From the NCBI GenBank assembly GCA_015059015.1, contig SVBG01000010.1, positions 1 to 64,000 of the forward strand: 64,000 nt of DNA, written 5' to 3'. Shown here one piece after another: positions 2,575 to 37,277 of this stretch; the stretch's first letter is position 1, and every line of letters begins with the position of its first letter. The position numbers and the translations under genes were made by a program. The DNA comes from Erysipelotrichaceae bacterium (GTDB lineage: Bacteria; Bacillota_I; Bacilli_A; ML615J-28; CAG-313). The notes beneath the pieces were generated by a model. That model saw only the letters and a program-made list of their open reading frames with translations. It did no database searches and was not told the DNA's origin.

Positions 2575-5500
2575 ATGAAATTGCAATACTTGTTAATAAT
2601 TTTTATATTATTTTTATTTATTGTAGGTTGTGATTATCAATATGATGATTCTATAAAAGAACCTGTTTTAGAATCAATTATAATTTCAAAAGAACCAAAT
2701 AAAACAACTTATTTTATTAATGAAGATATTGATTTATCAGGATTAGTTGTTGAAGCAGCTTATAGTGATAATTCTAAGAAAATTATTGATGATTATCAAG
2801 TAGAATATTCTAGTATTAATATTGGAATTAATAAGGTTATAATTAAATATGAAAATTTAGAAACTAGTTTTGATATATTAGTTAAAGATATTATTATTAC
2901 TTCGTTAAATATTATAAAAGGACCAAGTAAAACTAGCTATTATATAGATGAAGATATCGATTTATCAGGATTAGTTGTAGAAGCAGCTTATAGTGATAAT
3001 TCTAAGAAAATTATTGATGATTATCAAGTAGAATATCCTAGTATTAATATTGGAACAAATGAAATTATAGTTAAATATGATAATTTAGAAACTAGTTTTT
3101 TTGTTAGTTTTAAAGATTATGAAAGAGTTGAAATTAATTATATAGTTAATTATTCAAATTACTCAATTATGAATATCGATTTTACTAACTATGATTTAAG
3201 ATTTATTGATGCAAAATATGGTGTTAGACGAGATAAAGATATGATGATTGTCTATGATGAAGATAATTTTATAGAAACAAATATTTATGGATATGAAATA
3301 TCGGTTGATGAGTATGGAGAAGTTAAAGAAGTAGGTGTTAATGTTTCATTAGTAAAAAACGGGTTTGTTGTTTCAGGCCATGGTACAAGTTCTAAATTGT
3401 TAAAAGATGTAAGTGTTGGTGATATTTGTGTTTATATTGATGAAACTGTATATATTTATAAAAATAAAGATATTGATAGAAGAAGTAAAGTGTATTTAAA
3501 GTTAATTGATTTAATAAATGAAATAAATATTATTACTGATAACAAACTATATAATGTTTACGCAATGGAATTAAATGCTATTATTAAACAGTTTAATGTT
3601 ATTTATGATGAAACAGATGAAACGATAAATATTTTATATAATTTTTTATGTGATATTAGTGATAGCTTATTTGTTTCATTATATGATAATAATCACAGCT
3701 ATAATTATGTTGAACTTAATTATGATTTAATGGATAAAACATATGAAGATCCTAGTAATTTTATTAATTTCATTGATTATACTGAAAAGTTATATTATGG
3801 TGGTTTTAGAAATCAAGATACAATAGTTTTTTATAATGCCGATAATTATCGCGTGCGCAATTCTTATGGATATGAGATTGCGGTTGATAAAAATAATATT
3901 ATTATTGATAAAAAGATTTTAGTAGATTTACCAGAAGGTGGATATATTTTAAGTGGTCATGGTACTGGTGCAGAGTTTATAAAAAATAATTTAAATTTAG
4001 GTAATAAGGTTGAAATTACTGATTCTTGTATTAAGTTTTATAAAGACTTAGGATCTAATGAGTATAATGATTTAATTAGTAAACGTAATGATTTAGTATC
4101 AAAGATCAATGAACATTGTATAAATGCTATTCCACATGATTATAAATATATTTATAAATTAATGAATTATATTGATGGTACACTTTCTAAGAATAATTTG
4201 ATTATTAAAAGTTGTTATGATGTTAGTAATGTATCAAAGTGTATAAAAAAAGTAGAAGAATGTTTAGGTGTAGTATATAGTCAATTAATTGATCATAAGG
4301 TTTTAGAAACAAGAGGAATGTGGTACTATCCTTTTTCATATCCTACTGCATATGATGATACAACTTTAGAAGGTGTTATTAATACACTAGATATGTTTAA
4401 AGAAATGGGATTTAATGAAATTGTTATTATTCCGTTTAGTGGTAAATATTGTTTGTTTGAATCTGAATATTTTTATTTTTATGAACCATTAAATGATTAC
4501 TCTTATGGTGAATATGGTAATGATTATTTAACTTGTTTTATTACTGAAGCACATAAAAGAGGAATAACTGTTAATGCTTTTACACAAACATTTAGATGTT
4601 ATGAAGAAGGTTCTAAGGTATTTGATGAGTCACATTATCAACTTCAATATGATGGAACATTATCAATGGGGCAAATCTATTATTATGATATTTGTAATGA
4701 TTATGTACAAGAAAATTTAATAAATTGGTATATTGAATTAGTTACACTTTATGACTTTGATAAAGTTGAATATGATATTATTAGATATTCAGTATCTAAT
4801 TTAAGTAGTTTTAATGATGTTGAAGTAATTTTAGATACTGCAGTTATAAATGATCCAGGATATACAGAATACTCTATGAATAAATTTATGGAGATGTATA
4901 ACTTAGAAGGTGACTTAAAAGTTTTAATTAAAGAGTCACTTGATGTAAGATTAAAGTGGATGGAATTTAAAGAAAATGAGTTAACAAAATTTATTACTAA
5001 CGCTACAACTGCAATGAAACAAATAAAATCTAATTTAGTTATTAGTGCTGCAGTTTTAAATGAATATGAAAAGGTTAAAATAAATTATTTACAAGATGCT
5101 AAAAAATGGTTAGAACTTGGAATTGTTGATATAATTGAACCTATGGTTTATAGTGATGATTATTTATTTGTTGTTGATAAAATTGATTACTATAATAATG
5201 AATTTAGTGAATATGATGTTAGAATTGGATTATCATATGGTTTAACTGTTAATGAACTTATGATGCAATTAGAAGCTTCAAGCGGAAATGGGTATATTTT
5301 ATTTCATACAAGAGATTATTTAAATGTGAATTATTATAATATTATAAAATCAAGTTTCCATTTTGATTATGTTTCAGAGATTTCATCAAGCGAAGAAAAG
5401 AAATTAGCTATTATTAATGATTTAGTTGATAAAATTGAAAATTATTATGAAGTAAAAAATAAAACGAATTATACTAATCTTATAAATAGTTTTACTAACT

Positions 5501-5601
5501 ATGATTATAATAAAATAATTAATGAGTTATCTAAAGTACTTGATGAAGGTATGAAAAATTATATTTATGAAATAATTTTACAAATTGAAAGTATTAATTA
5601 A
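2575..5601 (+). CDS. Lipoprotein with Ig-like repeats and GHL10-type glycoside hydrolase domain
   Basis: This 1008-aa exported lipoprotein has a hydrophobic signal peptide ending in a V-G-C lipobox (Cys 19). Residues ~35-180 form two near-identical Ig-like repeats (Big_3-like, 76 aa, 228-bp DNA period: the same ~85 bp start at 2722 and 2950). Residues ~190-560 contain a duplicated module, each copy with Y-G-Y-E-I-x-V-D and later S-G-H-G-T. Residues ~575-930 look like a GHL10 (family-10-like, YngK/DUF187) TIM barrel: R-G-M-W-Y start, G-F-N-E-I-V-I, H-K-R-G-I-T-V-N-A-F, and D-K-V-E-Y-D-I-I-R-Y. The C-terminus is a helical tail. Cell-surface glycan hydrolysis is inferred; the exact substrate is unknown. 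Confidence 0.75.
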   Translation: MKLQYLLIIFILFLFIVGCDYQYDDSIKEPVLESIIISKEPNKTTYFINEDIDLSGLVVEAAYSDNSKKIIDDYQVEYSSINIGINKVIIKYENLETSFDILVKDIIITSLNIIKGPSKTSYYIDEDIDLSGLVVEAAYSDNSKKIIDDYQVEYPSINIGTNEIIVKYDNLETSFFVSFKDYERVEINYIVNYSNYSIMNIDFTNYDLRFIDAKYGVRRDKDMMIVYDEDNFIETNIYGYEISVDEYGEVKEVGVNVSLVKNGFVVSGHGTSSKLLKDVSVGDICVYIDETVYIYKNKDIDRRSKVYLKLIDLINEINIITDNKLYNVYAMELNAIIKQFNVIYDETDETINILYNFLCDISDSLFVSLYDNNHSYNYVELNYDLMDKTYEDPSNFINFIDYTEKLYYGGFRNQDTIVFYNADNYRVRNSYGYEIAVDKNNIIIDKKILVDLPEGGYILSGHGTGAEFIKNNLNLGNKVEITDSCIKFYKDLGSNEYNDLISKRNDLVSKINEHCINAIPHDYKYIYKLMNYIDGTLSKNNLIIKSCYDVSNVSKCIKKVEECLGVVYSQLIDHKVLETRGMWYYPFSYPTAYDDTTLEGVINTLDMFKEMGFNEIVIIPFSGKYCLFESEYFYFYEPLNDYSYGEYGNDYLTCFITEAHKRGITVNAFTQTFRCYEEGSKVFDESHYQLQYDGTLSMGQIYYYDICNDYVQENLINWYIELVTLYDFDKVEYDIIRYSVSNLSSFNDVEVILDTAVINDPGYTEYSMNKFMEMYNLEGDLKVLIKESLDVRLKWMEFKENELTKFITNATTAMKQIKSNLVISAAVLNEYEKVKINYLQDAKKWLELGIVDIIEPMVYSDDYLFVVDKIDYYNNEFSEYDVRIGLSYGLTVNELMMQLEASSGNGYILFHTRDYLNVNYYNIIKSSFHFDYVSEISSSEEKKLAIINDLVDKIENYYEVKNKTNYTNLINSFTNYDYNKIINELSKVLDEGMKNYIYEIILQIESIN
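2722..3038 (+). repeat. 228-bp tandem repeat coding Ig-like domains
   Basis: An ~85-bp block starting at 2722 (GAAGATATTGATTTATCAGG) recurs almost unchanged at 2950. Both encode the same D-L-S-G-L-V-V-E-A segment of consecutive Ig-like domains, a recent intragenic duplication. Confidence 0.8.
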
Positions 5602-8419: not shown

Positions 8420-11400
8420 ATGAAAAAAAGTTTGTTTATTTTTGCGTTTTTATTTTTGTGTTTTATATCTTCATGTAAAGAAAGTAGTATTAAAATTGTT
8501 AATATGGAAGAAAAAAATGGTGAATATTATTTAACTGTTGATAAAATTGTAAATTTTATTACGATTACTGATTATGTTGAAACTAGTCAAACATATATAA
8601 TAGAAACTATTCCAAATGATTTAAAAATTATTGCTTCATCAATTTATCTTGAAGATGGTGAAAATATTATTATAATCAAGCAAGATGATAAAGAGTTTAT
8701 TTTGCATTTCTTTAAAGAGTATGATGTAACTGTTGAACTAGTTGATAAAAATAATAATTGTTTATATCAATTTGAAACATTAATTAATACATCGCTTAGC
8801 TATGATGAAATTATTTCAAATATTTCTATTCCTGAAGGATATGAGTGGGATGGAAGTGTAATTTATAATGATGAAGTAAAATATATTGATGAAATAACTG
8901 TTTTATTATCAGTTAAATTAACTGTTATATTTAAACCAATAAATTACAAAATTACAATTAATGATAATTTAGGTTTTAATAATGAATATATACTTGATGT
9001 AGAAACTGGTAAAATACTTGAATTTAATATTCCTAATGTAGAAGGATATAAATTTTTAGGTGTTTATGCAAATGATACTTTAATAGAAGAAGGTTCAGTT
9101 TATTCACCGAAGATGGGAACAAAATTTACTATTTACTATGAACCATTATCATTTAAAATAACATACTTGTATAATAATGAAGAAAAAGTAGTAGATGTTT
9201 TATATGATGGTGTAATTGAAAAATTTATTCCAGATAAAAAAGGATATGCTTTTGTTTATTGGGAATTAAATAAAGAAGAGTTTAGTGATATTGTATATAA
9301 TTATACAAATGATATAATTTTAACTGCAAAGTTTGAACCATTATCATTTAAAATAACATACTTATATAATAATGAAGAAAAAGTAGTAGATGTTTTATAT
9401 GATGGTGTAATTGAAGAATTTATTCCAGATAAAAAAGGATATACTTTTGTTTATTGGGAATTAAATAAAGAAGAGTTTAGTGATATAGTATATAATTATA
9501 CAAATGACATTACTTTAAATGGTATTTTTAAACCAAATATTTACAAAATTACATATCAAAATATAGATACACCGTATTCTTATGAAGTTTCATATGGTAG
9601 TGAGTTTATTTTACCTATTCCTGAAAAAGAAGGATTTGAATTTTTAGGGTGGTATTTAGGTGATGCTAAGATTGAAAATGGTAAATATAATTATGATTAT
9701 GATATTGTATTAAAGGCGAAATGGAAAGATCTTGGTGTAAAACTTAATTTAGAAACTTTTGGTGGTTATGTTGATGAAGAAGCATTAATTGAAAGTGATG
9801 GTACTATTATATTACCGATTCCTGAAAAAGAAGAATTTACATTTATCGGTTGGTATTATGATATTAATTATCAAAATAAGGCTTCAGTTGTATTAAGTAG
9901 TGAATATAATAATGAAGTTTTATATGCTAAATATTATCATAATGATGATTATTATGTTGATAGTTTTGTTATATCTAAATTTAATGAACATATTTCAACA
10001 TATGATGTATTAACAATGTTTGATTCATCTCAAACAGGATTTACTAGTAAATACTGGCATAAAATTGGTGTTTCTTTCAGTGGTAATAATTATTATGTAA
10101 GTGGAATAGCAAAAAATGGTGAAGCTTTAAGTAGTCTTAATAGTTATGATTTTGTCATATTAGCTTATTCATCATATGGTTTATATAGTCAATTTGAAAA
10201 AATGGAGATTAATATTGGAACTAAAGTTTTATTTAGTGCTGATCCTAGTACTATCGAAGAGAATGATGTTAATTTGTTAGTAAGTTTTATTAATAGTGAC
10301 ACATCTGAATATTATGATGAAATTTCAGATTATTTGGATTCTGTTTATAGTAAATATAATGAAATAGAACAAAATATTACACTGATAAACAATTATAATA
10401 ATATTCCAATTATTTGGGAATCATCACATAATGATATTATTTCTTGTACTGGTGTATTTAGAAAGCCAGTTTCTAATGTTTCTATAACTTTAACTGCATA
10501 TGTAAATAATGAAAAAATATATGAATTTACTGTTACTGCAAAAGGCGATGGTAAGAGTAATGCTCTTGCAACGGGTTATATTTATACACCATATAATACA
10601 ATAACACAAAATGCAATGAATGTTTTAGATATAATTTATTGTGCATTCTTAGATATTGATGCTAATGGTGATTTTACTAATGAATCTAGGATGATAAGTA
10701 ATATTAATAATTATATTAAACCACTTGCGAAAAATTCAGGTACTAAGATTGTTATTTCTGTTAATCAAAGTGCAAGTGGTGCATTTGCGAGCGTTGCTGC
10801 GAGTCCTACTTTAAGAGAAAAACTTGCTACTAATATTTTAAACTTTGTGGAAAAATTAGAAATTGATGGTATAGACATTGACTGGGAAACTCCAACATCA
10901 AGTGAGGCAACAACATTTACTCTACTTATGGAAGCAATTTATAATAAGATGAAAGCTAAAAATCCTGAATATTTAGTTACAGCGGCCATTGGTGGAGGTA
11001 AATGGCAACCACCTAAGTATGACTTAACTAATTCTAAAGCTTATTTAGATTATGTTAATTTAATGACATATTCAATGGCTACAGGTAACGGTTATTATCA
11101 AAATGCTTTATATAAATCAACAAAAGGAGCAACTCTAACTAGTTGTACAATTGTTGAAAGTGTTGATATTTTTAATGGCTATGGAATTGAAAATGCTAAA
11201 ATTTTAGTTGGTATTCCATTCTACTTAACTGTTCAAACAGAAAGTGGTGGACCAGGATCAAAAACTGGTAGTGGAAAGTCTAAATGGTATAATTTACTTG
11301 ATACTACATATGCATTATCTGATACAATGAAAGAATATTTTGATGAGGAATGTGGTGTTCCGTATCGATATGATTCTGTTAATAAGATTTTTATATCTTA

Positions 11401-11536
11401 TGAAAATGAAAAAAGCATCAAACGTAAGTGTGAATATATTAACGCAAATGGACTTGCAGGAATTATGTACTGGCAATATGGACAAGATGTTGATGATTAT
11501 TTAAGTAATGCGATTGGTAAATATATTAACGCTTAA
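8420..11536 (+). CDS. GH18 lipoprotein 1 with InlB-type repeats
   Basis: This 1038-aa lipoprotein has a signal peptide M-K-K-S-L-F-I...I-S-S-C. Residues ~170-515 hold about five InlB/Listeria-Bacteroides (Flg_new) beta-grasp repeats with the G-[YF]-x-F-x-G-W-Y pattern; two of them are a 65-aa near-identical tandem copy. A beta-sandwich-like linker follows. Residues ~715-1035 form a GH18 TIM barrel with the D-G-I-D-I-D-W-E active-site motif at 816-823 (catalytic Glu 823), a Y-V-N-L-M-T-Y strand and a terminal G-I-M-Y-W-Q-Y-G strand. It probably cleaves beta-1,4-GlcNAc-containing glycans at the cell surface. Promoter (TATACT about 8393) and AAGGAAG precede the ATG. The W-E-T-P after the motif differs from the W-E-Y-P of the three later GH18 genes. 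Confidence 0.85.
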   Translation: MKKSLFIFAFLFLCFISSCKESSIKIVNMEEKNGEYYLTVDKIVNFITITDYVETSQTYIIETIPNDLKIIASSIYLEDGENIIIIKQDDKEFILHFFKEYDVTVELVDKNNNCLYQFETLINTSLSYDEIISNISIPEGYEWDGSVIYNDEVKYIDEITVLLSVKLTVIFKPINYKITINDNLGFNNEYILDVETGKILEFNIPNVEGYKFLGVYANDTLIEEGSVYSPKMGTKFTIYYEPLSFKITYLYNNEEKVVDVLYDGVIEKFIPDKKGYAFVYWELNKEEFSDIVYNYTNDIILTAKFEPLSFKITYLYNNEEKVVDVLYDGVIEEFIPDKKGYTFVYWELNKEEFSDIVYNYTNDITLNGIFKPNIYKITYQNIDTPYSYEVSYGSEFILPIPEKEGFEFLGWYLGDAKIENGKYNYDYDIVLKAKWKDLGVKLNLETFGGYVDEEALIESDGTIILPIPEKEEFTFIGWYYDINYQNKASVVLSSEYNNEVLYAKYYHNDDYYVDSFVISKFNEHISTYDVLTMFDSSQTGFTSKYWHKIGVSFSGNNYYVSGIAKNGEALSSLNSYDFVILAYSSYGLYSQFEKMEINIGTKVLFSADPSTIEENDVNLLVSFINSDTSEYYDEISDYLDSVYSKYNEIEQNITLINNYNNIPIIWESSHNDIISCTGVFRKPVSNVSITLTAYVNNEKIYEFTVTAKGDGKSNALATGYIYTPYNTITQNAMNVLDIIYCAFLDIDANGDFTNESRMISNINNYIKPLAKNSGTKIVISVNQSASGAFASVAASPTLREKLATNILNFVEKLEIDGIDIDWETPTSSEATTFTLLMEAIYNKMKAKNPEYLVTAAIGGGKWQPPKYDLTNSKAYLDYVNLMTYSMATGNGYYQNALYKSTKGATLTSCTIVESVDIFNGYGIENAKILVGIPFYLTVQTESGGPGSKTGSGKSKWYNLLDTTYALSDTMKEYFDEECGVPYRYDSVNKIFISYENEKSIKRKCEYINANGLAGIMYWQYGQDVDDYLSNAIGKYINA
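9143..9532 (+). repeat. 195-bp tandem repeat coding two InlB-type domains
   Basis: The block starting CCATTATCATTTAAAATAAC at 9143 recurs at 9338 with only scattered substitutions. This gives two consecutive 65-aa repeats in GH18 lipoprotein 1 and marks a recent duplication. Confidence 0.85.
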
Positions 11537-13752: not shown

Positions 13753-14217
13753 ATGATAAAAGTATTATTTGTATGTCATGGAAATATTTGCAGAAGTCCA
13801 ATGGCAGAATTTATAATGAAAGATAAAGTAAAAAAATTATCGATTGAAAATTTATTTTACATTGATAGTAGAGCAACATCAAAAGAAGAAATCGGAAATA
13901 ATATTTATCCTAGTGCTTTAAAAACACTTAAAAATCATGGGATTTTTGGCGCAAGTCATTCTGCAAAGCAAATAACAATGGAAGATTATAATTATTTTGA
14001 TTATATCTTTGTAATGGAACAAGCTAATATTAGAATGCTTAAATATGTTTTAAAAAATTGTAATTTAGCTAAAGTTTCTTTAATTGGTGAATTCATTGAA
14101 GAAGGATTATGGATAGAAGATCCTTGGTATACAGATAATTTTGAAATTGTATTTGAACAATTAAATAAGGCTATTGATATTTTTATCAATCAATTAAGAA
14201 TAGAGGAGAAAATATGA
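13753..14217 (+). CDS. Low-molecular-weight protein-tyrosine phosphatase
   Basis: This 154-aa protein has the canonical P-loop C-H-G-N-I-C-R-S at residues 8-15 (Cys8 nucleophile, Arg14) and the general-acid loop D-P-W-Y at ~123-126. It dephosphorylates phosphotyrosine proteins. A natural partner would be the BY-kinase encoded at 24315-25046, although a PHP-type phosphatase sits closer to that gene. Its stop overlaps the start of GH18 lipoprotein 2 by 4 bp (ATGA), so expression is coupled. Confidence 0.88.
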   Translation: MIKVLFVCHGNICRSPMAEFIMKDKVKKLSIENLFYIDSRATSKEEIGNNIYPSALKTLKNHGIFGASHSAKQITMEDYNYFDYIFVMEQANIRMLKYVLKNCNLAKVSLIGEFIEEGLWIEDPWYTDNFEIVFEQLNKAIDIFINQLRIEEKI

Positions 14218-16967
14218 AAAAAACATTACTTATAATTTTTGTATTGTGCATTGCATGTTTTATGACAAGTTGTAAAAAAACTTATACAGTAACATTTAAA
14301 GATGGTGACACTGTATTAAAAACAGAGGAAGTAAAAAAAGGTGATAGTGCGATTGGTTTAACTCCAGAAAAAGAGGGTTATACATTTACTGGATGGGATA
14401 AATCATTTGCTAGTGTAACTAGTGATTTAACTGTTAATGCACAGTTTACTATTAATACATATACAGTAACATTTAAAGATGGTGATACTGTATTAAAAAC
14501 AGAAACAGTTAACTATGGATCTGCTGCAGTTGGGTTAACTCCAAATAAAGAGGGTTATACATTTACTGGTTGGGATAAATCATTTGACAATATAAAAAGT
14601 GATTTAGTTGTAAATGCTAATTTTACAGTTAATGCTTATACAGTAACGTTTAAAGATGGTGATACAGTATTAAAAATAGAAACTGTTAATTATGGAGAAA
14701 GTGCTATTGGTTTAACTCCAGAGAAAGTTGGATATACATTTATTGGTTGGGATAAAGAGTTTGACAATGTAACAAGTGATTTAGTAGTAAATGCAAAGTT
14801 TGAAGTTATTACTTTTAACGTTGTTATTTATGATCAAGAATCAATTTATCAATCAGTAACTGTAAATTATGGCGATACTTTACAAGATTTAAGTTTTTCT
14901 AAAGAAAATTGTTTTTTTGGTGGATTATTCACTGATTATGGTTATACTTATGAATATGATGTTAGTAAAGAGATTTTTGATGATTTAGTTCTATATGTAA
15001 AATTTTCAAAGATTTTTAATCTAACTTTATTTGTTGAAGATGAAGTGATTAATGTTACTGTACTAGAAAATACAATTGTTGATGATTTAGAAGTAAAAGA
15101 ACTTCCTGAGAAAAAATTTGTTGGTTGGTATTACGATCAAGAATATAAGCAATTTGCATCGATTAAAACAGTAATAGATTCTGATATGACGCTTTATGCA
15201 AAATATATTGCTCAAGTATATACAGTTACATTTGAAACAAATGGCGGAAATACTCTTAAAAGTGTGCAATTTAGTTCTGGAACTATTCCAAGTGAACCGA
15301 TGTATAATCCAAGTAAATTAGGATATGAATTTGCATATTGGAGTTTAGATGCTGAAGGAAAAAAAGTATATAACTTTACTGAAATTATTAAAAATAGTTT
15401 TACTCTTTACGCAAATTACGTAGAGACTGATTATTATGGATTATTAGATAGTATTGTCCCTGATGTAATAGATCAAGATATTGAATTACCAACAAGACGT
15501 GATTATTTCGAATATAATTGGGAGATTAGTGATACAAGTTTATTAAGTTATAGTGGAATATATAATCCAGATTTAGTTGATAAAGAAATTTCTATATCTT
15601 TAACAATAAATGTAATTGGAAGTGAAGAAAGTCTAATGTTTGAAAAAAATATAACAATTAAAAAATATGAATTAAAAGAACTTATTACTGGTGATATTGT
15701 GATGGGATATACATCATCATGGTATTATAGTGGTTATAGCGAAGAAGTGTTAAATACTGTTGACGTTTTATATATTAGTTTTGCGTATGTTAATGAAGAT
15801 GGTACATTGAATATTAATGGTATAAAAACACTATTAAGTGAAACAGTTGCTGCTGGGCATAAAAAAGGTATTCGTGTTTGTTTAAGTATTCAAGGCTATG
15901 GAGAAGATACTAAGAACTTTAGTGATTGTGCTGCAAGTTCAACCTTAAGAGTGAAACTTGCTAAATCTATGGTTGATGCAGTTGTAGAATATCGATTAGA
16001 TGGTATTGATATTGACTGGGAATATCCTGGATCATATAGTGGTAGAAGTTTGGCAGAAGATAGAACTAATTATACACTTTTAATTAAAGAAATTAGAAAA
16101 CAATTAGATGCTGTTAATCCTGAACATTTATTAACAGCGGCAATTCCTGCTGGTCCTTGGGGACATGAACGTTATGAATTAAATAAATTAGTTCAATATT
16201 TTGATTACATCAATATGATGAGTTACGATTTACAAAGTTCATCTGCAGGGACTCATCACGCAGCATTATATCCATCTAGTGGAGTTACATCAGGATGCTC
16301 AATTTCTGAAACAGTTGAAGTTTGGTCAAGTAAGGGTGTGCCACTTGAAAAGATGTGTTTAGGTATCGCCTTTTATGGTAAAGATATTAAAACTAAAACA
16401 TCAAATAACAATGGACTAGGTCAAAGTGCTATTACTGGAGGATATTATAAAAATAGCGCATTTACTGCTGCATGTACTAATTATATTGATTTAATCGGAA
16501 CGACTGTAAAATATAATTTTGATTATACTGCATGTGCACCATATATGTTTAATACTGAAAAAAGAATGTTTTACACTTACGAAAATGAATTATCAATCAT
16601 TTATAAATGTGAATATGCTAAAACAACGGGCTTAGGTGGAGTAATGATTTGGGAAATTGGTGAAGATAATACAAATACATTAATTACTGCTGTTGCACAA
16701 GGAATGGGAAGAAAACTTTCTGAAAAGCCCTATATTATTGGCGGTAATGAAACATTTAAAGTTGGTGATGAAATAGATATTAAAGCTATAAAAGAAGCAA
16801 GTGATACATTATTAAGTGAAAACTTAATTTACACAATTAGTGATAATACTGTTGCAACACTAAGTGGGACTAAAGTTTCATTTGTAAATACTGGCACAGT
16901 AACTATTACTGCATTAAATCAAGAAACAGGTTTTGTTTATGGAACATTAACAATTAATGTTGAATGA
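14214..16967 (+). CDS. GH18 lipoprotein 2 with InlB-type repeats and C-terminal Big_2-like domain
   Basis: This 917-aa lipoprotein has a signal peptide ending M-T-S-C. Residues ~22-205 are three nearly identical InlB-type repeats (T-V-T-F-K-D-G-D ... G-Y-T-F-x-G-W-D), followed by three more divergent ones to ~400. Residues ~410-490 are a beta-sandwich linker. Residues ~495-830 form a GH18 barrel with D-G-I-D-I-D-W-E at 596-603 (catalytic Glu603), Y-I-N-M-M-S-Y-D and G-V-M-I-W-E-I. The last ~75 residues look like a Big_2-type Ig fold. It likely cleaves surface or extracellular GlcNAc glycans. It overlaps the LMW-PTP gene by 4 bp behind GAGGAG, and a terminator follows. Confidence 0.87.
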   Translation: MKKTLLIIFVLCIACFMTSCKKTYTVTFKDGDTVLKTEEVKKGDSAIGLTPEKEGYTFTGWDKSFASVTSDLTVNAQFTINTYTVTFKDGDTVLKTETVNYGSAAVGLTPNKEGYTFTGWDKSFDNIKSDLVVNANFTVNAYTVTFKDGDTVLKIETVNYGESAIGLTPEKVGYTFIGWDKEFDNVTSDLVVNAKFEVITFNVVIYDQESIYQSVTVNYGDTLQDLSFSKENCFFGGLFTDYGYTYEYDVSKEIFDDLVLYVKFSKIFNLTLFVEDEVINVTVLENTIVDDLEVKELPEKKFVGWYYDQEYKQFASIKTVIDSDMTLYAKYIAQVYTVTFETNGGNTLKSVQFSSGTIPSEPMYNPSKLGYEFAYWSLDAEGKKVYNFTEIIKNSFTLYANYVETDYYGLLDSIVPDVIDQDIELPTRRDYFEYNWEISDTSLLSYSGIYNPDLVDKEISISLTINVIGSEESLMFEKNITIKKYELKELITGDIVMGYTSSWYYSGYSEEVLNTVDVLYISFAYVNEDGTLNINGIKTLLSETVAAGHKKGIRVCLSIQGYGEDTKNFSDCAASSTLRVKLAKSMVDAVVEYRLDGIDIDWEYPGSYSGRSLAEDRTNYTLLIKEIRKQLDAVNPEHLLTAAIPAGPWGHERYELNKLVQYFDYINMMSYDLQSSSAGTHHAALYPSSGVTSGCSISETVEVWSSKGVPLEKMCLGIAFYGKDIKTKTSNNNGLGQSAITGGYYKNSAFTAACTNYIDLIGTTVKYNFDYTACAPYMFNTEKRMFYTYENELSIIYKCEYAKTTGLGGVMIWEIGEDNTNTLITAVAQGMGRKLSEKPYIIGGNETFKVGDEIDIKAIKEASDTLLSENLIYTISDNTVATLSGTKVSFVNTGTVTITALNQETGFVYGTLTINVE

Positions 16968-17073: not shown

Positions 17074-18939
17074 ATGATGAAAAAAATATTATTGTGTTTT
17101 ACTATTTTCATTATATTACTTTTTAGTTCCTGTGATAATAATGTAAATAATCAAGATTCTAATAATCATGAACATAGTTTTGTAGAAGGAATATGTTCTT
17201 GTGGAGAAAAAGATCCTAATTATCATGAACATAGTTTTGTAGAAGGAATATGTTCTTGTGGAGAAAAAGATCCAAATTATCATTTTCATAGTTATGAAAA
17301 TGGTAAGTGTTCCTGTGGTATAATTGATCCTAATCACACGCATAGTTATACAGATGGTAAATGCGTATGTGGAGAAAAAGATCCTAATTATCATATACAT
17401 GACTATATTGACGGAATATGTTCTTGTGGAGAAAAAGATCCTAATAATGTTGTAGTATATACTATTACTTTTGATCCGCTATTTAGTGATTCAACAATAA
17501 CAGCATACGTAAATGAAGGTGAATTTGTTGAAAAATTAATTCCAGATTTATATGAAGGGTATAATTTTATTGGTTGGACATTGTCTTTTGGAAGTGAAGA
17601 ATTATTTGATTTTAATACACCTATTTATAATAATATGATTTTATATGCTGTGTGGGAAGAAGTTATTATCATTGTAGAAAAAGATTATTCAGGTATTATT
17701 GACGAATTTGTTCCTGATGTTGTTGCTAGTTCATTAGAATTACCTACACGATATGATGATTTAAGATTGATATGGAGTACTTCTAATCAGTATACGCTTA
17801 ATAATTATGGGAATTTAATTAAGCCAAGAGATGAAGAAGAGCTAATTGTTTATTTAACCGTATATGATCAAGGCGAGTTATTCGATTTTGAAAAAAATGT
17901 TATTGTTCCTGCAATCGAGTTTGATCCACTACCAAGTAGCAATCTAGTATTTGGATATTATTCAACATGGAACTTTTTTGGTTATACAGATAAAATGCTT
18001 GAGACTTGTGATGTAATTAATTTATGTTTTGGGTATGTAACTACGGATTTTAAGATTGATACAGCAAGTATCTTAGCTGTTATTAATCAAGTTCTTAGTG
18101 TAAGAGAAAAAGGTGTTAGAGTTGTTTTATCTATTCAAGGATACAGTGAAGCGGGTACAAACTTTAGTAGAGCTGCAGCAACAGAAGAAGGAAGAATTAC
18201 TTTGGCGGAATCAATGCTAAGAGTTGTTGAAAAATTTCATTTAGATGGAATTGATATTGACTGGGAGTATCCTGGTTTTAATACAGGTACTAGTGTCTCT
18301 GTAGATAAAGCAAATTATACTCTTTTATGTAAACAAATTAGTGAAACATTTAAAAAAGCTAACCCTGATTATTTAATAACTGCAGCGATTCCAGGTGGTA
18401 GTAACGGACCTTATCGTTTTGATTTGGGTAATGTTTCAAAATATTTAGATTATATTCATATTATGACGTATGATATGCAAAATGGATCTCTTGCTACTCA
18501 TCATACAGCGTTATATGATTCTTCAGCAACACTTTCAGGTTGTACTGTTGCATCATCAGTTCAAACATATAAGAGTTATGGAGTTCCATCATCTAAGATC
18601 GTAATAGGACTTGCTTTTTATGGTAAGAGAACTTATTCAACAGGATTAAATAATAGAGCTAGTGGTGGATATAAATCTATAACATATGATTTAATTGTAA
18701 GAGATTATTTATCTAGACTTAATAAAGATGTAATATATGGTTTTGATGAAACTGCATATGCACCATATTTAATAGATAAAACGAATGGATATTTCATTAC
18801 CTATGATGATGAAAAATCTATTACTGCTAAATGTAATTATGCAGTAAATAATGATTTAGGCGGAGTAATGATATGGGAAATTGGACAAGATACTTCAGAT
18901 ACATTACTTTCAGCTGTATATAATAGTATGAAAAAATAA
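17074..18939 (+). CDS. GH18 lipoprotein 3 with Cys/His tandem repeats
   Basis: This 621-aa lipoprotein has a signal peptide ending F-S-S-C (Cys20). Residues 32-124 are five tandem ~19-aa units of the form H-x-H-[SD]-[FY]-x-x-G-x-C-x-C-G-x-x-D-P-N, rich in paired His and Cys. An InlB-type repeat follows (~125-190) and then a beta linker. The GH18 barrel spans ~290-620 with D-G-I-D-I-D-W-E at 391-398, Y-I-H-I-M-T-Y-D and G-V-M-I-W-E-I-G. The spaced CxC and HxH pairs could bind metal or form disulfides; this is inference. A TATAAT promoter precedes it at about 17050, and GH18 gene 4 follows 21 bp after its stop, so the two form an operon. Confidence 0.86.
   Translation: MMKKILLCFTIFIILLFSSCDNNVNNQDSNNHEHSFVEGICSCGEKDPNYHEHSFVEGICSCGEKDPNYHFHSYENGKCSCGIIDPNHTHSYTDGKCVCGEKDPNYHIHDYIDGICSCGEKDPNNVVVYTITFDPLFSDSTITAYVNEGEFVEKLIPDLYEGYNFIGWTLSFGSEELFDFNTPIYNNMILYAVWEEVIIIVEKDYSGIIDEFVPDVVASSLELPTRYDDLRLIWSTSNQYTLNNYGNLIKPRDEEELIVYLTVYDQGELFDFEKNVIVPAIEFDPLPSSNLVFGYYSTWNFFGYTDKMLETCDVINLCFGYVTTDFKIDTASILAVINQVLSVREKGVRVVLSIQGYSEAGTNFSRAAATEEGRITLAESMLRVVEKFHLDGIDIDWEYPGFNTGTSVSVDKANYTLLCKQISETFKKANPDYLITAAIPGGSNGPYRFDLGNVSKYLDYIHIMTYDMQNGSLATHHTALYDSSATLSGCTVASSVQTYKSYGVPSSKIVIGLAFYGKRTYSTGLNNRASGGYKSITYDLIVRDYLSRLNKDVIYGFDETAYAPYLIDKTNGYFITYDDEKSITAKCNYAVNNDLGGVMIWEIGQDTSDTLLSAVYNSMKK
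17167..17445 (+). repeat. 57-bp-type tandem repeats coding HxH...CxCG units
   Basis: Five in-frame units run in tandem. The first two (17167 and 17224) are virtually identical at DNA level; the later ones have diverged. They encode the Cys/His module after the lipid-anchored N-terminus. Confidence 0.85.
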
Positions 18940-18960
18940 AAATTGAAAAGAGGGTTAAAA

Positions 18961-20895
18961 ATGAAACTAAAGTATTTTTTAATTTTTACAATTTGCTTGG
19001 GTGTTATACTATCAAGTGGATGTAATAATAAATGTAGTAATAATCATGAACATTTTTATATAGAAGGTAAGTGTGAGTGTGGAGAAACTGATCCAAACTA
19101 TGTACCACATATTCATAATTATATAGAAGGGAAATGTGAGTGTGGAGAAACTGATCCAAACTATATACCACATATTCATAATTATATAGAAGGTAAGTGT
19201 GAGTGTGGAGAAACTGATCCAAACTATGTACCACATGTTCATAATTTTGTAAACGGCAAATGTGAATGTGGAGAAACTGATCCTAATTATGTACACGTAC
19301 ATGAATTTGTTGATGGTAAATGTGAATGTGGTTTTGAAGAAGAAAGTGAAATTGATAAATTATTAAAAGATGAAGAAGGTGCAACTGAATTTAGAGTTTA
19401 TTTTAATTATATGGATGACAGTGAATATGTAATGGTTACTGTAAGTTTAAATAAAGTAGTTGTAAGACCTAATAAACCATCACGTGATGGATTTAAGTTT
19501 CTTGGATGGTATACTGATGAATCGGGTACAAACCTTTATAATTTTAATACTCCGATAACTAAGTCTATTATGTTATATGCTATATGGGAAGAAATTCCTT
19601 TTGTAGATTATACTTACTTGTTGAATGAAATAGTACCTAACGTTGTTAGTGAAGATTTTGAATTATATAGACGTAACCCCTATAATGATGATATTCATTT
19701 AGCTTGGGTTTCATCAGATCCTCAAACTATTTCTCCAACTGGTATTGTAATTCCAGGTGATGAAACTGAAATTGTTACATTGACGATGGAAGTAATTGAT
19801 GATGGATATTCAACATTCTTTAGCAAAGATGTAGAAGTTGAACCAGCAACGTTTAATGAACTTAGATCAGGTAGAACTATTTTTGGTTATTATGCTTCTT
19901 ATAACTTTAATGGTTATACTGAAGATCAATTAAAATGTAATGTAATTAATTTAAGTTTTGCATATGTAACATATGATTATAAATTGGATATGAATTCCTT
20001 GAATGAACAAATATTGTATGGTGCTTTAGCTGCAAGAAAACAAGGTGTTAGAGTTGTGTTATCTATCCAAGGTTATGGTGATGAAAGTAAAAATTTCAAA
20101 GATGCTGCATCAACTCCAGAAAATAGAGCAATATTTATTAAGAATATTGTTGATGTTGTAGATAAATACCATTTTAATGGAGTTGATTTAGACTGGGAGT
20201 ATCCAGGTTGGTTTACACCTTTAAAGAAAGATTCTGATGCTGAAAATTATACAGCACTATGCCAAGAATTAAATACTGCATTAAAAGAAAAAAATCCAGA
20301 TTATTTATTAACTGCTGCTATTCCTGGTGGTGCAGAGGGCTTTAAACGTTATAATTTAGCTGAATGTTCAAAATATTTAGATTATATTCACTTAATGACA
20401 TATGACTTAGAAGCATCATCTAAAGTATATCATCATACTGCGTTATATGCCAACGTGGGAAAAGGCACTGCAACTGATGCAGCTGTTAAAGAATCTGTTG
20501 AAATATTTAAATTGAAAGGTGTTCCAGCAGAAAAAATTGTTGTTGGTATTGCGTTTTATGGTAAATATACTACACCAGTCTCTTCCACAAATGGCGGCTT
20601 AGGAAGTGATTCAAAAACAGGTAAATATACAACTCTTACTTATGCAAGAATTAAGTCTAACTTCTTAAATAGAGTAGGTGACACTGTTACAGAATACTGG
20701 GATAGTATTTGTTATGCACCATATTTGTATGATTCTGCATATAATTATTTTATTACTTATGAAAATGCTAGATCGATAAATGAAAAAGCAAAATATATGC
20801 GAAAGAATGGTCTTGGTGGTGTTATGATTTGGGAACTAGGTGAAGACTCTAGTGACGGTGAATTGATGGCTGCTGTTGTTAGCAGTATGAGATAA
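18961..20895 (+). CDS. GH18 lipoprotein 4 with Cys/His tandem repeats
   Basis: I start at ATG 18961 (644 aa) because AAGAGG lies just upstream; the in-frame TTG at 18943 would put that site inside the gene. The signal peptide ends S-S-G-C (Cys21). Residues 29-123 are five Cys/His units like those of lipoprotein 3, here mostly 21 aa with P-H between units. An InlB-type repeat follows (~140-215), then a linker and a GH18 barrel (~305-644) with N-G-V-D-L-D-W-E at 406-413 (Glu413). It is a paralogue of gene 3 with a slightly different active-site motif, so specificity may differ. A terminator follows 7 bp after the stop. Confidence 0.86.
   Translation: MKLKYFLIFTICLGVILSSGCNNKCSNNHEHFYIEGKCECGETDPNYVPHIHNYIEGKCECGETDPNYIPHIHNYIEGKCECGETDPNYVPHVHNFVNGKCECGETDPNYVHVHEFVDGKCECGFEEESEIDKLLKDEEGATEFRVYFNYMDDSEYVMVTVSLNKVVVRPNKPSRDGFKFLGWYTDESGTNLYNFNTPITKSIMLYAIWEEIPFVDYTYLLNEIVPNVVSEDFELYRRNPYNDDIHLAWVSSDPQTISPTGIVIPGDETEIVTLTMEVIDDGYSTFFSKDVEVEPATFNELRSGRTIFGYYASYNFNGYTEDQLKCNVINLSFAYVTYDYKLDMNSLNEQILYGALAARKQGVRVVLSIQGYGDESKNFKDAASTPENRAIFIKNIVDVVDKYHFNGVDLDWEYPGWFTPLKKDSDAENYTALCQELNTALKEKNPDYLLTAAIPGGAEGFKRYNLAECSKYLDYIHLMTYDLEASSKVYHHTALYANVGKGTATDAAVKESVEIFKLKGVPAEKIVVGIAFYGKYTTPVSSTNGGLGSDSKTGKYTTLTYARIKSNFLNRVGDTVTEYWDSICYAPYLYDSAYNYFITYENARSINEKAKYMRKNGLGGVMIWELGEDSSDGELMAAVVSSMR
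19045..19329 (+). repeat. 63-bp tandem repeats coding HxH...CxCG units
   Basis: Five units lie in tandem, the central ones with a 63-bp period and near-identical sequence (GTGAGTGTGGAGAAACTGAT in several copies). They encode the N-terminal Cys/His module of GH18 lipoprotein 4. Confidence 0.85.
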
Positions 20896-30229: not shown

Positions 30230-30258
30230 AAACTATTAAGAATAACTCTTAATAGTTT
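30230..30258. terminator. Bidirectional terminator
   Basis: AAACTATTAAGA (30230-30241) pairs perfectly with TCTTAATAGTTT (30247-30258) between convergent genes. A and T runs flank it. Confidence 0.75.
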
Positions 30259-30589
30259 AAAACATAGTTTCAAAAATTGGAAATTTAATAAAACAACATT
30301 CTTCTTGAATGGTAATTAATGGTGCAAAATCAAATAATTCTATAACGCTAATGTGTAAGGCGATACAAATAGATTCAATTTTATTTAGACTTATATGTTT
30401 AGTACCACGTAATAAATCATTAAGATAAGAATAATTAAGATTTAGTAATATTGCGAAATTATATAAAGATAAGTCAGAACATAAAAAAATATATTCTAAT
30501 TTTAATGCAAATGCTTCGCTAAGTGGGATTGTATTAAAATTTACTTTCATAATCTTATCTAAATACTTGCTGTATTCAATAGTTTTCAT
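30257..30589 (-). CDS. XRE-type helix-turn-helix protein
   Basis: This 110-aa protein has a Cro/C1-type HTH at residues ~28-80. The helix pair is L-S-L-Y-N-F-A-I-L-L-N and Y-S-Y-L-N-D-L-L-R-G-T, with the following L-N-K-I-E-S-I-C-I-A-L helix typical of HTH_3. It is a probable DNA-binding regulator whose target is unknown. It lies just downstream (same strand) of tRNA-Arg(CCT), outside the prophage boundary, so it is host-encoded. Confidence 0.65.
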   Translation of the reverse strand: MKTIEYSKYLDKIMKVNFNTIPLSEAFALKLEYIFLCSDLSLYNFAILLNLNYSYLNDLLRGTKHISLNKIESICIALHISVIELFDFAPLITIQEECCFIKFPIFETMF

Positions 30590-30605
30590 AAATCACCTAA
30601 TAAAA

Positions 30606-30681
30606 TGGCATCCCAACAGGGAATCGAACCTTGATCGGTAGCTTAGGAGGCTACTGCTCTATCCTATTGAGCTATTGGGAC
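30606..30681 (-). tRNA. tRNA-Arg (anticodon CCT)
   Basis: The reverse complement folds as a complete tRNA. It has a 7-bp acceptor (GTCCCAA/TTGGGAT, first pair G-T), the D-arm with AGCTCAATAGGATAGAGCA, an anticodon stem GTAGC/GCTAC with loop CTCCTAA (anticodon CCT, reads AGG), a T-arm with GGTTCGATTCC, discriminator G and an encoded CCA. Confidence 0.95.
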
Positions 30682-30800
30682 ACATATAGTATATTATCTT
30701 AAATTTTAAGTAAAAAGTAAAGTCATTTGATAAGATATGTTATTTAAAATATTGCTTTAGTGCATAAATTAGTTGCTAAAGTAGTTTAAGATTGATTTTA

Positions 30801-30906
30801 TTGATATTAAGTTTGAAATATGATATAATTGGATTATCAGTTATACTGATACATTTCTAGAGTGTATCAACCCGAGATACTTTTGTAGTAGCTAGGGTTT
30901 TTAAAA
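30801..30906 (+). ncRNA. Candidate small RNA 1: promoter plus short hairpin transcript
   Basis: TTGATA (30801-30806), a 17-bp spacer and TATAAT (30824-30829) form a strong promoter with no open reading frame behind it. The ~67-nt transcript from ~30836 could form TATCAGT/ACTGATA and then AACCC/GGGTT around an inner TAC/GTA, ending in TTTTT at 30898-30902. It lies between two tRNA-Arg genes, on the opposite strand. The function is unknown. Confidence 0.45.
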
Positions 30907-30928
30907 TAAAATAGTTTTATCATAAAAT

Positions 30929-31036
30929 TTGATTTTACATTTTTAATAGTTTATAATATTTTCGTCGGTTTATCTGATACTAGATATTTATTTATTATAT
31001 TTAAAGCGGGTACAATAGGTAGCCCGTATTTTTATT
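30929..31036 (+). ncRNA. Candidate small RNA 2: promoter plus short hairpin transcript
   Basis: TTGATT (30929-30934), a 17-bp spacer and TATAAT (30952-30957) are followed by a ~70-nt non-coding stretch. It ends in a GC-rich hairpin (CGGGTAC...GTAGCCCG, 31007-31026) and a T run. It has the same architecture as candidate 1, about 130 bp further on. Confidence 0.45.
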
Positions 31037-31151
31037 TTTAATAGAAATTTTACATTAATCTATTTTGTTGAATAAAAAATAAAAATATTATATACTATAT
31101 ATGCTATCATAATATTAAAAGTTTATTAATTTATGGATTTTTTAAATAAAA

Positions 31152-31178
31152 AATAGTATAGTTTTTAACTATACTATT
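31152..31178 (-). terminator. Original terminator of tRNA-Arg(TCT)
   Basis: AATAGTATAGTT (31152-31163) pairs with AACTATACTATT (31167-31178), with the T run on the minus strand. It lies just beyond the displaced tRNA 3' end, so it must have ended the tRNA transcript before the element inserted. Confidence 0.7.
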
Positions 31179-31189
31179 AATTATCTAAG

Positions 31190-31246
31190 ATGGCGTCCCA
31201 GAAGAGATTCGAACTCCCGACACACGGCTTAGAAGGCCGTTGCTCT
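31190..31246 (-). pseudogene. Displaced 3' part of tRNA-Arg(TCT): left attachment repeat (att)
   Basis: This 57-bp stretch is identical to 44470-44526. It covers the CCA end, T-arm, variable loop, whole anticodon arm and the end of the D-arm of tRNA-Arg(TCT), then diverges at 31247. It is the duplicated attachment site left when the element integrated into the tRNA gene. It is a tRNA fragment and cannot act as a tRNA. Confidence 0.92.
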
Positions 31247-31381
31247 GTTCAAATCAAATTTAGGTCATTTTTGAGCTTCATAAACTTTTAAAGAATAAAC
31301 TTAATTCTTAATTTAGGTTGTGATGTGTTTTTGTTAAACACGCTAATAATATAATTTAAATAAAATTTTTTTGCAAATAAT

Positions 31382-31468
31382 TTGATAAAAAATTTAAAAT
31401 AACATATAATATTAGAGAACTAGACCTGTGATAGTAAATAACTATCGCCAATAGGCTAGTTTTTTTTA
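31382..31468 (+). ncRNA. Candidate small RNA 3 (inside the prophage)
   Basis: TTGATA (31382-31387), a 17-bp spacer and TATAAT (31405-31410) precede a ~50-nt element. Its ends AACTAG and CTAGTT pair, with CCT/AGG and GATAGT/ACTATC stems inside, and eight T follow. It has the same design as candidates 1 and 2 but lies just inside the left attachment site. It could also act as a structured regulatory or replication element. Confidence 0.45.
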
Positions 31469-31780
31469 TTTCTTTTTTTTATGTTTATTAACTTTATCAA
31501 TAATTTTTACATAATCTTCATTATGTAATTTATAATTTTTAAGTGGTTCACTAAAATGCTTTTTATCATCATACCTTAATTCATTTCTAATATAAGACTT
31601 ACCACTTTTATTTTTTTGTGGATTATTAATTTCAATATTTTTATGATGACCACGTTTTGGACTTTCTGTTAATCCCATAAAACCAAATTTATTACCTTTT
31701 TTATCAACTATTAATTTAGGGTGTTTAGCACGTTTACGTTTACCACCTTCAATTTTATCATATTTTCTAAAAGTAAACAA
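31466..31780 (-). CDS. Small basic prophage protein
   Basis: This 104-aa, very Lys/Arg/His-rich protein begins at TTG 31780 (AAGGAAG six bases upstream). Recognisable blocks are K-R-A-K-H-P-K-L-I-V-D, K-F-G-F-M-G-L-T-E-S and R-G-H-H-K-N. I have the impression that similar small basic proteins occur on Firmicutes mobile elements, but I cannot name a family. It is probably nucleic-acid binding. It is the last gene on the minus strand before the left attachment site. Confidence 0.55.
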   Translation of the reverse strand: MFTFRKYDKIEGGKRKRAKHPKLIVDKKGNKFGFMGLTESPKRGHHKNIEINNPQKNKSGKSYIRNELRYDDKKHFSEPLKNYKLHNEDYVKIIDKVNKHKKKK

Positions 31781-31833
31781 TTATAACTTCCTTTCTAAAG
31801 TCTTAAATTGTATTTAAGTCTTTTTTTTATTTA

Positions 31834-32100
31834 TTAAAATGGAATATAAAGATTTACAGCTTTAAGAATTTTATCAAATGAATTTAAATCTTTAAAATTA
31901 ATAATTAAATTTCCATAATCTTCTGAATCAAAAATAATTACTTCATTTAATTCTTCAAATGCTTCAACTATTGTTAATAAATCTTCATATTTTTTTAAAT
32001 CTTTTTCATATGATTCATACGATAAATTATATTTATTGTTCTTTGCATTTTCCATTAAATCTTTTAATGTTTTTATATTTTCTTTTATAAATTCTATCAT
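31834..32100 (-). CDS. Hypothetical 88-aa prophage protein
   Basis: I do not recognise this protein. It is acidic and mostly helical: an E-F-I-K-E-N-I helix start, a Lys/Tyr-rich middle and an E-E-L-N-E-V-I-I-F-D strand. It starts 1 bp after the stop of the upstream gene (32102) behind GGAGAT, so it is translated as part of the integrase-end operon. Confidence 0.55.
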   Translation of the reverse strand: MIEFIKENIKTLKDLMENAKNNKYNLSYESYEKDLKKYEDLLTIVEAFEELNEVIIFDSEDYGNLIINFKDLNSFDKILKAVNLYIPF

Positions 32101-32101
32101 T

Positions 32102-32491
32102 TTAACTATCTCCTAGAAAATCAAAAATATCTAATTGAATGAATTTAATTTTTTTCTTTTGTAATAATTCTCTTTGAAGTAAATAATTTACAATAGATTC
32201 AACATCAGTAAAAACTTCCAACCAACCATAACCAGAATATCTATCTTCTTTAAACTCAAACCTAATACAAATTTTTCCACAAAATTTACTTGCTAAAAAA
32301 GTATTTGTACCTGTTTTAATATGTCTATAATCTTCAATTTTAATTTCTAATTGTTTATATCTTAACCCTTTATCAAAATAAATTATTAATCTATTATCAT
32401 CATCAATAACTGATGATTTTATTTCACAATGTTCAGTAATATAAAAATCAAAATCTTCAATAATACTCTTTAAATAAGATTGTTTAAACAT
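32102..32491 (-). CDS. Hypothetical 129-aa prophage protein
   Basis: I do not recognise this protein. It is an alpha/beta protein with alternating strands (L-I-I-Y-F-D, L-E-I-K-I-E, I-C-I-R-F-E-F) and a helical end. No membrane segment is present. It follows the recombinase gene by 8 bp on the same strand, as accessory genes such as excision or control factors often do; no HTH is evident. Confidence 0.55.
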   Translation of the reverse strand: MFKQSYLKSIIEDFDFYITEHCEIKSSVIDDDNRLIIYFDKGLRYKQLEIKIEDYRHIKTGTNTFLASKFCGKICIRFEFKEDRYSGYGWLEVFTDVESIVNYLLQRELLQKKKIKFIQLDIFDFLGDS

Positions 32492-32499
32492 GTTATCAC

Positions 32500-33333
32500 C
32501 TAATAATTCATATTTTGTATAAACTGCTGTTGGATATATTCATTATCATAATGAACATATCTTTCAGTAGTTTTTAAATTTTTATGTCCCATTAATGTCA
32601 TTAATATAAATAATGATGTTCCATTTTTATGTAATATTGATGCAAAAGTATGTCTTAACATATGTGGATGAAATTTATTTAAAGCTAATTGTTTTTTTAT
32701 TCTTTCAAATAAATTTCTTACTGCAGAATAACTAGTATTTTCAAATAATAAAACTTGATCTAAATTTTTTAGATGTAATTTTAACAAGTATGCAGTTCCT
32801 TCTCTAAAATAACAATATCTACTTTTAGATGTTTTTGTTTGAACTAAATAAATCGAATTGTTTGTAAAATTAATATTTTTCACTTGTATATTTAAAAGTT
32901 CATTAATACGAATACCAGTTTCTAAAAGAAGAAACATAATTAATTTATTTTTTAAAATAAGTTTTTCACTTGTATTTAAATAATTAACTAAATTATTTAA
33001 TTCTATAGTATTAAGACTATTAAAATGATTTTGTTTTTCTTTTAACATTTTTAAATTATTTAAATACTCATTTTCTATTTGACAATATTCAAACATTTTC
33101 TTTAATGGTTTAAATCTTTTGTTAATAGTACTATTGGATACATTATTCTCATGCATTTCATAAATGTATTGTAATAATACTTTAGATGTAATCTCATCAT
33201 CAGTTAAAATATCATTCTTATTTAAAAATTTAAATAAAGAATTTAAATGAGATAAATAACATTTATAAGTTCCTTCAGATAATGTAGCTTTAACAAAAGA
33301 TAAATATAAATTTTTCATCTCTGCTAACAACAT
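32500..33333 (-). CDS. int: Tyrosine recombinase (prophage integrase)
   Basis: This 277-aa protein has an N-terminal SAM-like core-binding domain (~1-95) and a catalytic domain with Arg142 (T-G-I-R-I-N-E-L), a Lys in the K-T-S-K beta-hairpin (~167-170), H224-x-x-R227 (H-M-L-R-H-T-F-A), His250 (L-M-G-H) and the nucleophile Tyr259 (E-R-Y-V-H-Y). All catalytic residues are present. It is compact, XerC/D-like in size, and presumably inserts the element into tRNA-Arg(TCT). AGGAG precedes ATG 33333, overlapping the end of the small upstream gene. Confidence 0.92.
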   Translation of the reverse strand: MLLAEMKNLYLSFVKATLSEGTYKCYLSHLNSLFKFLNKNDILTDDEITSKVLLQYIYEMHENNVSNSTINKRFKPLKKMFEYCQIENEYLNNLKMLKEKQNHFNSLNTIELNNLVNYLNTSEKLILKNKLIMFLLLETGIRINELLNIQVKNINFTNNSIYLVQTKTSKSRYCYFREGTAYLLKLHLKNLDQVLLFENTSYSAVRNLFERIKKQLALNKFHPHMLRHTFASILHKNGTSLFILMTLMGHKNLKTTERYVHYDNEYIQQQFIQNMNY

Positions 33334-33344
33334 ATTTTATACTC

Positions 33345-33485: not shown

Positions 33486-33494
33486 TACAATTTC

Positions 33495-34595: not shown

Positions 34596-34625
34596 AATAA
34601 TCTCCTAGTATATATTAATAGTGCG

Positions 34626-34647: not shown

Positions 34648-34660
34648 AAATTTTTTGAAG

Positions 34661-34903: not shown

Positions 34904-34907
34904 CTGT

Positions 34908-36642: not shown

Positions 36643-36643
36643 A

Positions 36644-36898: not shown

Positions 36899-36908
36899 AA
36901 TTAAACTC

Positions 36909-37259: not shown

Positions 37260-37277
37260 GTTTTACTCCTTAATAAT

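Follow-up and report, generated by a model that had tools for sequence, protein, structure and literature searches.

Two adjacent GH18 lipoproteins with tandem units

The 64,000-nucleotide stretch analysed here (positions 1 to 64,000 of contig SVBG01000010.1, Erysipelotrichaceae bacterium assembly GCA_015059015.1), referred to as the window, carries on its forward strand two adjacent open reading frames (ORFs; 17074-18939 and 18961-20895) with one common layout: a signal peptide with a lipobox, five short tandem units of the type H1-x-H2-x-[FY]-x-x-G-x-C1-x-C2-G, one Listeria-Bacteroides repeat and a GH18 domain. Our data on the conservation, distribution and position of these units suggest that each of them is probably a self-contained structural zinc hairpin, and that an array of units probably forms a stalk close to the membrane anchor.

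The first lipoprotein (621 amino acids; GH18 profile PF00704 at 2.8e-61) starts with a signal peptide and the lipobox FSSC (17074-17133, Cys20). Then follow units HEHSFVEGICSCGEKDPNY (17167-17223), HEHSFVEGICSCGEKDPNY once more (17224-17280), HFHSYENGKCSCGIIDPN (17281-17334), HTHSYTDGKCVCGEKDPNY (17335-17391) and HIHDYIDGICSCGEKDPNN (17392-17448), the Listeria-Bacteroides (InlB B-type) repeat PF09479 (17458-17652, residues 129-193, 4.6e-7) and the catalytic domain with the motif GIDIDWE (17947-18891, residues 292-606). For the second lipoprotein (644 amino acids from the ATG; PF00704 at 1.9e-68), the ATG at 18961 is the most likely start, the TTG at 18943 being possible as well. Its signal peptide and lipobox SSGC (18961-19023, Cys21) precede units HEHFYIEGKCECGETDPNYVP (19045-19107), HIHNYIEGKCECGETDPNYIP (19108-19170), HIHNYIEGKCECGETDPNYVP (19171-19233), HVHNFVNGKCECGETDPNYV (19234-19293) and HVHEFVDGKCECG (19294-19332, lacking DPN), a PF09479 repeat (19393-19581, 4.3e-14) and, by profile match, the catalytic domain with the motif GVDLDWE (19879-20847). 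Both motifs are of the DGxDxDWE type typical of GH18 domains. Lipobox and anchor calls were made with our own script, using lipobox and hydrophobicity rules, and not with SignalP.

The DNA pattern for HxHx[FY]xxGxCxCG matched ten times in the window, five times per ORF, at the unit starts given above, and never in 100 dinucleotide shuffles. Chance repeats were therefore rejected as the origin of the units, and the arrays of five reported behind both lipid anchors by the earlier note are confirmed. Unit spacing was 19, 19, 18 and 19 residues in protein 1 and 21, 21, 21 and 20 in protein 2. A DP part followed nine of the ten units, the exception being the tenth, which ends in GFEEESE.

Neighbouring units can be nearly identical at the DNA level: units 1 and 2 of protein 1 differ by 1 of 57 nucleotides, units 2 and 3 of protein 2 by 2 of 57, which points to recent DNA repeat turnover. 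The units matching these in the orthologues of a second genome of the same genus (G011) differ by 9-15 of 54 nucleotides; in unit 5 of protein 2, 54 nucleotides are identical in both species. All four proteins have five units, and copy number was equal in 15 of the 16 close orthologue pairs between the two genomes, the last one differing by 4 versus 5. In length-variable surface stalks of the periscope type, repeat number differs between close relatives, as it did in this one pair. The repeats had been considered recent enough to expand or contract; turnover of their sequence is borne out, but their number was the same in the other 15 pairs.

Distribution of units in the host genome

In G000, the genome to which the window belongs (2.01 Mb, 97.97% complete), the unit pattern had 66 exact matches, 54 on the forward and 12 on the reverse strand, and the reversed control pattern had none. 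A protein search with the array of protein 1 (array 1), followed by ORF calling around its matches only, so that distant variants could have been overlooked, yielded 22 ORFs. Their 71 units comprised 66 with an HxH and a CxC pair (HxH/CxC), four of type CxxH/CxxC and one with a plain H and CxxC. The 66 HxH/CxC units are borne by 22 exported proteins of many kinds. Besides the window pair, attached domains were GHL10, NAGPA (five proteins), CHAP, Amidase_2, BspA-type leucine-rich repeats, Endonuclease_1, a Staphylococcal nuclease homologue and another GH18; among the 20 unit proteins scanned against Pfam, three had only B-repeats and two had no match at E 0.001. A GH18-specific feature was rejected because of these many other domains. 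Describing the module as unusual for an exported glycosidase hence misses the point, since it is a general, mostly anchor-side module in this genome. The five NAGPA (phosphodiester glycosidase) proteins (L024, L026, two in L028, L029) all have C-terminal unit arrays followed by a tail with a Cys and a transmembrane segment (TM).

Such a number of potential sites on many surface proteins, in multi-site arrays, could also be expected if the arrays chiefly gathered zinc, or some other soft metal, close to the membrane to be taken up, any structural role being secondary. We consider this reservoir or scavenger function quite unlikely: the arrays are borne by enzymes and other proteins of many kinds, no ZnuA was found above cut-off in G000, and four closely spaced ligands are more in keeping with tight structural binding than with a labile site.

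Position of arrays and module exchange

In 12 of the 22 proteins the first unit lies shortly after the lipid Cys, and in six the last unit lies shortly before a C-terminal TM with a Lys/Arg end. The tendency was complete for longer arrays: all 14 arrays of at least three units in G000 adjoin an anchor, eight after an N-terminal lipobox and six before a C-terminal Cys-TM-Lys/Arg tail. In G011, 13 of 14 such arrays did so and one ended at a contig edge; in G009, from the same family, two of four adjoined an anchor, one ended at a contig edge and one lay elsewhere.

Other modules were found at this same place. Units are absent from the window's two further GH18 proteins, at 8420-11536 and 14214-16967, which carry B-repeats instead, and a search with the C-terminal tail found eight places in G000, six behind unit arrays, one behind a B-repeat (E 6.9e-4) and one behind a coiled-coil-like stretch, the last match being weak (E 0.73) though the tail is readable. 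As B-repeats or a coiled-coil-like stretch occupy the anchor-side place of related proteins, the array appears to be one of several interchangeable stalk modules, and the suggestion of a stalk made in the earlier note gains support from the position of the arrays. The PF09479 repeats, tandem and at the same place in sister proteins, are about 65 residues long, lack the Cys/His ligand pattern and are unrelated in sequence to the units.

The tails after the six arrays were all of the form KKKC[GS][KN]K-TM-K/R. The tail KKKC[GS][KN]K-TM-[KR], with its constant Cys, TM and basic end, was seen on about eight G000 proteins (L021, L024, L026, L028, L029, L278, L279), and a sister genus carries the form C[SQ]MG-TM-RK. 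With NCBIfam, an LPXTG match alone was obtained on this tail, below cut-off. It is tripartite like the MYXO-CTERM signal (PMC11980579) and could represent a sorting signal of gut Bacilli that has not been described before. In L072, L119 and L145 (Clostridia, Oscillospiraceae), units stand ahead of an amphipathic C-terminal end, for example LNFFQRIWQAILNFFKSLFGKKD, that may serve as a further type of membrane anchor.

Aap/SasG B-repeats are large domains with zinc between molecules, whereas the zinc of a unit would lie within 13 residues. They are tandem surface repeats tied to zinc, as is proposed here for the units, and PMC9802226 describes zinc-dependent homophilic binding of the Aap B-repeats. 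This precedent, together with the presence of one module common to many proteins of one surface, would fit an adhesive or assembly function, in which arrays bind each other or a wall or host ligand through metal and cluster the surface proteins. It is nevertheless very unlikely in our opinion: non-ligand positions of the units change fast (168 of 585, see below), conservation being largely confined to the ligands, Gly and Asp-Pro, and the place nearest the membrane would be a poor one for contact between cells.

Conservation of ligand residues

In fifteen orthologue pairs from G000 and G011, each unit was compared with its counterpart, units other than HxH/CxC being skipped; the sixteenth close pair (L029/L236) was excluded because its copy numbers differ. 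No amino-acid change was found at the 180 positions of the four His/Cys ligands in spite of 21 silent codon changes, nor at the 90 positions of the two Gly in spite of 34. Of the remaining unit positions, 168 of 585 had changed, versus 797 of 9197 outside the units (Fisher tests on the change counts, 4.6e-23 and 7.9e-41). The linker and surface positions of the units thus change at roughly three times the rate seen elsewhere in these proteins, while the ligands stay unchanged. Among proteins from five genomes, 168 units had all four ligands and three lacked one in register; all three keep a substitute His or Cys, HTHNYVNGYCDECG and HIHDYVDGVCTGCG as CxxC and HRCQYVDGYCECG through a change of H2 to Cys. 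Each unit has the four conserved Cys/His ligands expected of a zinc hairpin or knuckle, with little conservation beyond these, Gly and Asp-Pro.

These data bear on a neutral reading, according to which the array is a low-complexity spacer maintained by DNA repeat turnover and lacking an ordered site. Tandem repeats with recent turnover and fast-changing non-ligand positions are what it would predict, but the absence of changes at 270 ligand and Gly positions, against 55 silent changes there, and the presence of the unit in proteins of Clostridia and Bacteroidales make it hardly credible.

The two halves of the unit also varied together. Pair types in the five genomes were HxH/CxC (168), HxH/CxxC (2), CxxH/CxxC (8) and plain H/CxxC (2), for which a Fisher test gave 8.7e-15, a value that treats units as independent, which they are not. 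Loci from named genomes, fetched with the HxH/CxCG pattern and partly repeating the five genomes, provided 156 units: 136 HxH/CxC, four HxH/CxxC, one CxxH/CxxC, one CxH/CxxC, nine plain H/CxxC, three plain H/CxC and two without H2. When H1 was left out of the scan, it was present at 13 of the 13 listed CxCG places of G000 and absent at the single such place of genome G156; it occurred at none of the 19 listed CxxCG places, from 15 of 295 genomes (codons read by eye). This coupling may reflect co-adaptation within one site or the existence of two sister families of units. The CxxH/CxxC units, which stand at the head of some G000 arrays, and the GHxYxxGxCxxCG units of gut Bacillota share the core Hx[FY]xxGxC with the HxH/CxC units, and sometimes the DP(N/D)Y tail too, but differ from them in ligand spacing and first ligand.

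The same observations help to judge the disulfide-linked stalk envisaged earlier, in which the CxC cysteines would pair within or between neighbouring units and the His residues serve otherwise. An exported protein with two Cys per unit, both invariant in orthologues, would suit such a staple. However, the His residues are as invariant as the Cys in the orthologue pairs, the compensated exceptions include a change of His to Cys, and H1 status follows Cys spacing. Moreover, neither DsbA (PF01323) nor VKOR (PF07884) had a match in the nearly complete G000 at E 0.001, other thiol oxidases not having been searched for, while in the control genomes DsbA was matched in 8 of 14 and VKOR in 3 of 14. 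Disulfide linkage is for these reasons disfavoured, and we regard it as rather unlikely. The metal sites proposed alongside it are well supported, by inference from ligand invariance, compensated exceptions, the coupling of both halves and the zinc precedent presented below.

Similarity with the structural zinc site of DYW domains

The Pfam profile DYW_deaminase (PF14432) matched array 1 with 27.5 bits (cut-off 24) over five stretches, the best one covering positions 77-90 of the 93 in the profile. In a PDB search with 33 units condensed into a 19-column profile, the best match was the DYW domain of OTP86 (7o4e, E 0.04), with vHeYieGkCeCGE aligned to FHHFESGLCSCGD, and DYW1 (7w86) came third of six matches (E 1.4). 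The ligands of the structural zinc (zinc 2) of OTP86 are given in PMC7611903 as C954, C956, H947 and H924. If C954 is aligned with C1, the His opposite H2 is H947, so that H947-x6-C954-x-C956 equals H2-x6-C1-x-C2. The unit thus contains, by sequence, the H-x6-C-x-C-G half-site of zinc 2 and counterparts of three of its four ligands. An aromatic residue after H-x and a Gly ahead of x-C are further likenesses to OTP86 (PDB 7o4e/7o4f), and by analogy the unit may work like the zinc 2 site, a structural one in DYW.

Differences are nonetheless clear. The fourth DYW ligand, H924, lies in a helix of the deaminase domain, while in the unit the fourth ligand would be H1, two residues before H2 on the same strand; H1 aligns with OTP86 residue 945, an Arg according to PMC7611903. 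DYW occurs as one copy in a plant organelle enzyme, and the units are tandem, exported and devoid of a deaminase. Array 1 did not match the deaminase core with its catalytic zinc site (profile positions before 77), so the similarity concerns the zinc 2 site and implies neither kinship nor membership.

Proposed structure and function of the arrays

The units, their invariance, their position and the exchange of modules are shown by sequence. From these we infer that the unit would be a self-contained beta-hairpin whose first strand carries H1 and H2 and whose second carries C1 and C2. The four residues would together bind one structural metal ion, most probably Zn2+, at a site resembling DYW zinc 2 but with all four ligands within 12 residues. 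Successive hairpins would be joined head to tail, with DPNY(V)(P)(P) as the linker. Tandem hairpins would then build a short metal-stiffened stalk beside the membrane anchor, either the N-terminal diacyl-Cys or the C-terminal Cys-TM-Lys/Arg tail, and keep the working domain, here the GH18 glycosidase, away from the membrane.

AlphaFold2 predicted one hairpin per unit, with short strands on either side of the turn. For array 2, that of protein 2 (34 array sequences), the mean predicted local distance difference test score (pLDDT) was 82.1 and the predicted template modelling score (pTM) 0.40, with strands Y7-I8 and K11-C12 and likewise in the other units; array 1 (7 sequences) gave a similar pattern with a mean pLDDT of 73.2 and a pTM of 0.30. 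Whole arrays searched against the PDB found glutathione peroxidase as best match (E 0.49 and 0.14).

Several observations weigh against a zinc-stiffened, anchor-side stalk. The search pattern includes H2, [FYW], G, C1 and C2, hence three of the four ligands, and the zero-change result is partly due to this construction, which the decay checks reduce without removing. DYW_deaminase passed its cut-off for only one of three arrays, scoring 11.1 bits on array 2 and 14.3 bits on the array of L021, and the PDB matches to DYW domains (0.04 and 1.4) are not significant on their own. ZnuA (PF01297) was matched in G000 below cut-off only. The five models of array 1 had pLDDT values of 73, 62, 40, 36 and 35, and with pTM values of 0.30-0.40 the geometry between units is not predicted; Foldseek gave no solved fold at E 0.001 or better and VIA none, although the units may be too short for this. 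As to position, four of the 22 G000 proteins have units away from an anchor (L032 at +40, L034, L035 at +706 and the secreted GH18 L036), one four-unit array of G009 sits 79 residues from the lipid Cys, and other gut bacteria carry single units within long secreted proteins.

If the sites bind zinc, the unit would be a very short complete zinc module, serial and extracellular, where structural zinc hairpins are not usually sought. The zinc hairpin stalk, if correct, would put a name to a module that at present goes unannotated in many surface proteins of gut Bacillota, with the rule that an array marks an anchor-side stalk. It would also offer a simple modular part for enzyme display, and the supply of zinc would become linked to how gut anaerobes build their surface. 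An unlikely extension would be a zinc-gated surface, on which all array-bearing proteins of this bacterium stand on serial hairpins that fold only with zinc, and host or dietary zinc sets the reach, protease resistance or display of a whole class of surface enzymes together.

Occurrence in other bacteria and neighbouring genes

When one genome per species was scanned with the pattern, at least 101 stretches were recovered, all counts being lower bounds. In-frame units were found, among the matches listed, in gut Bacilli, Clostridia, Oscillospiraceae, Lachnospiraceae and some Paludibacteraceae. The listed units were often single, at domain borders or ahead of C-terminal ends. The CxCG form was rare in the class, being present in 2 of 295 sampled genomes, G000 included, and was seen in 5 of 15 of the family. 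Single matches in short ORFs of Bacteroidales and Proteobacteria (HCHRYGGGRCHCG type) were dropped as chance matches in other frames, the in-frame Paludibacteraceae units being retained. A phage origin was rejected: viral contigs gave one stretch, in a 108-residue ORF with no other unit, which was read as chance.

Apart from the DYW tail, neither Pfam nor NCBIfam has a model that describes the unit at its cut-off; EGF_2 reached 22.3 bits on the L021 array (cut-off 22.1), no single stretch passing. Full-text searches of the openly available literature found no description of the unit strings or of HxH-CxCG lipoprotein repeats.

Within the window, five exported glycosidase-like lipoproteins are clustered between 2575 and 20895, namely a GHL10 protein (2575-5601) and GH18 proteins at 8420-11536, 14214-16967, 17074-18939 and 18961-20895, with differing stalk repeats (Big_3, B-repeats or unit arrays). 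Further downstream, a run of minus-strand genes (30257-43995) has the appearance of an integrated element, perhaps one resembling a filamentous phage or a plasmid. Its genes include those of a phage integrase (32500-33333) and of a Rep_trans replication initiator (33495-34595), together with a P-loop-like ORF (34908-36221) and ORFs for several small proteins with signal peptides or TMs.

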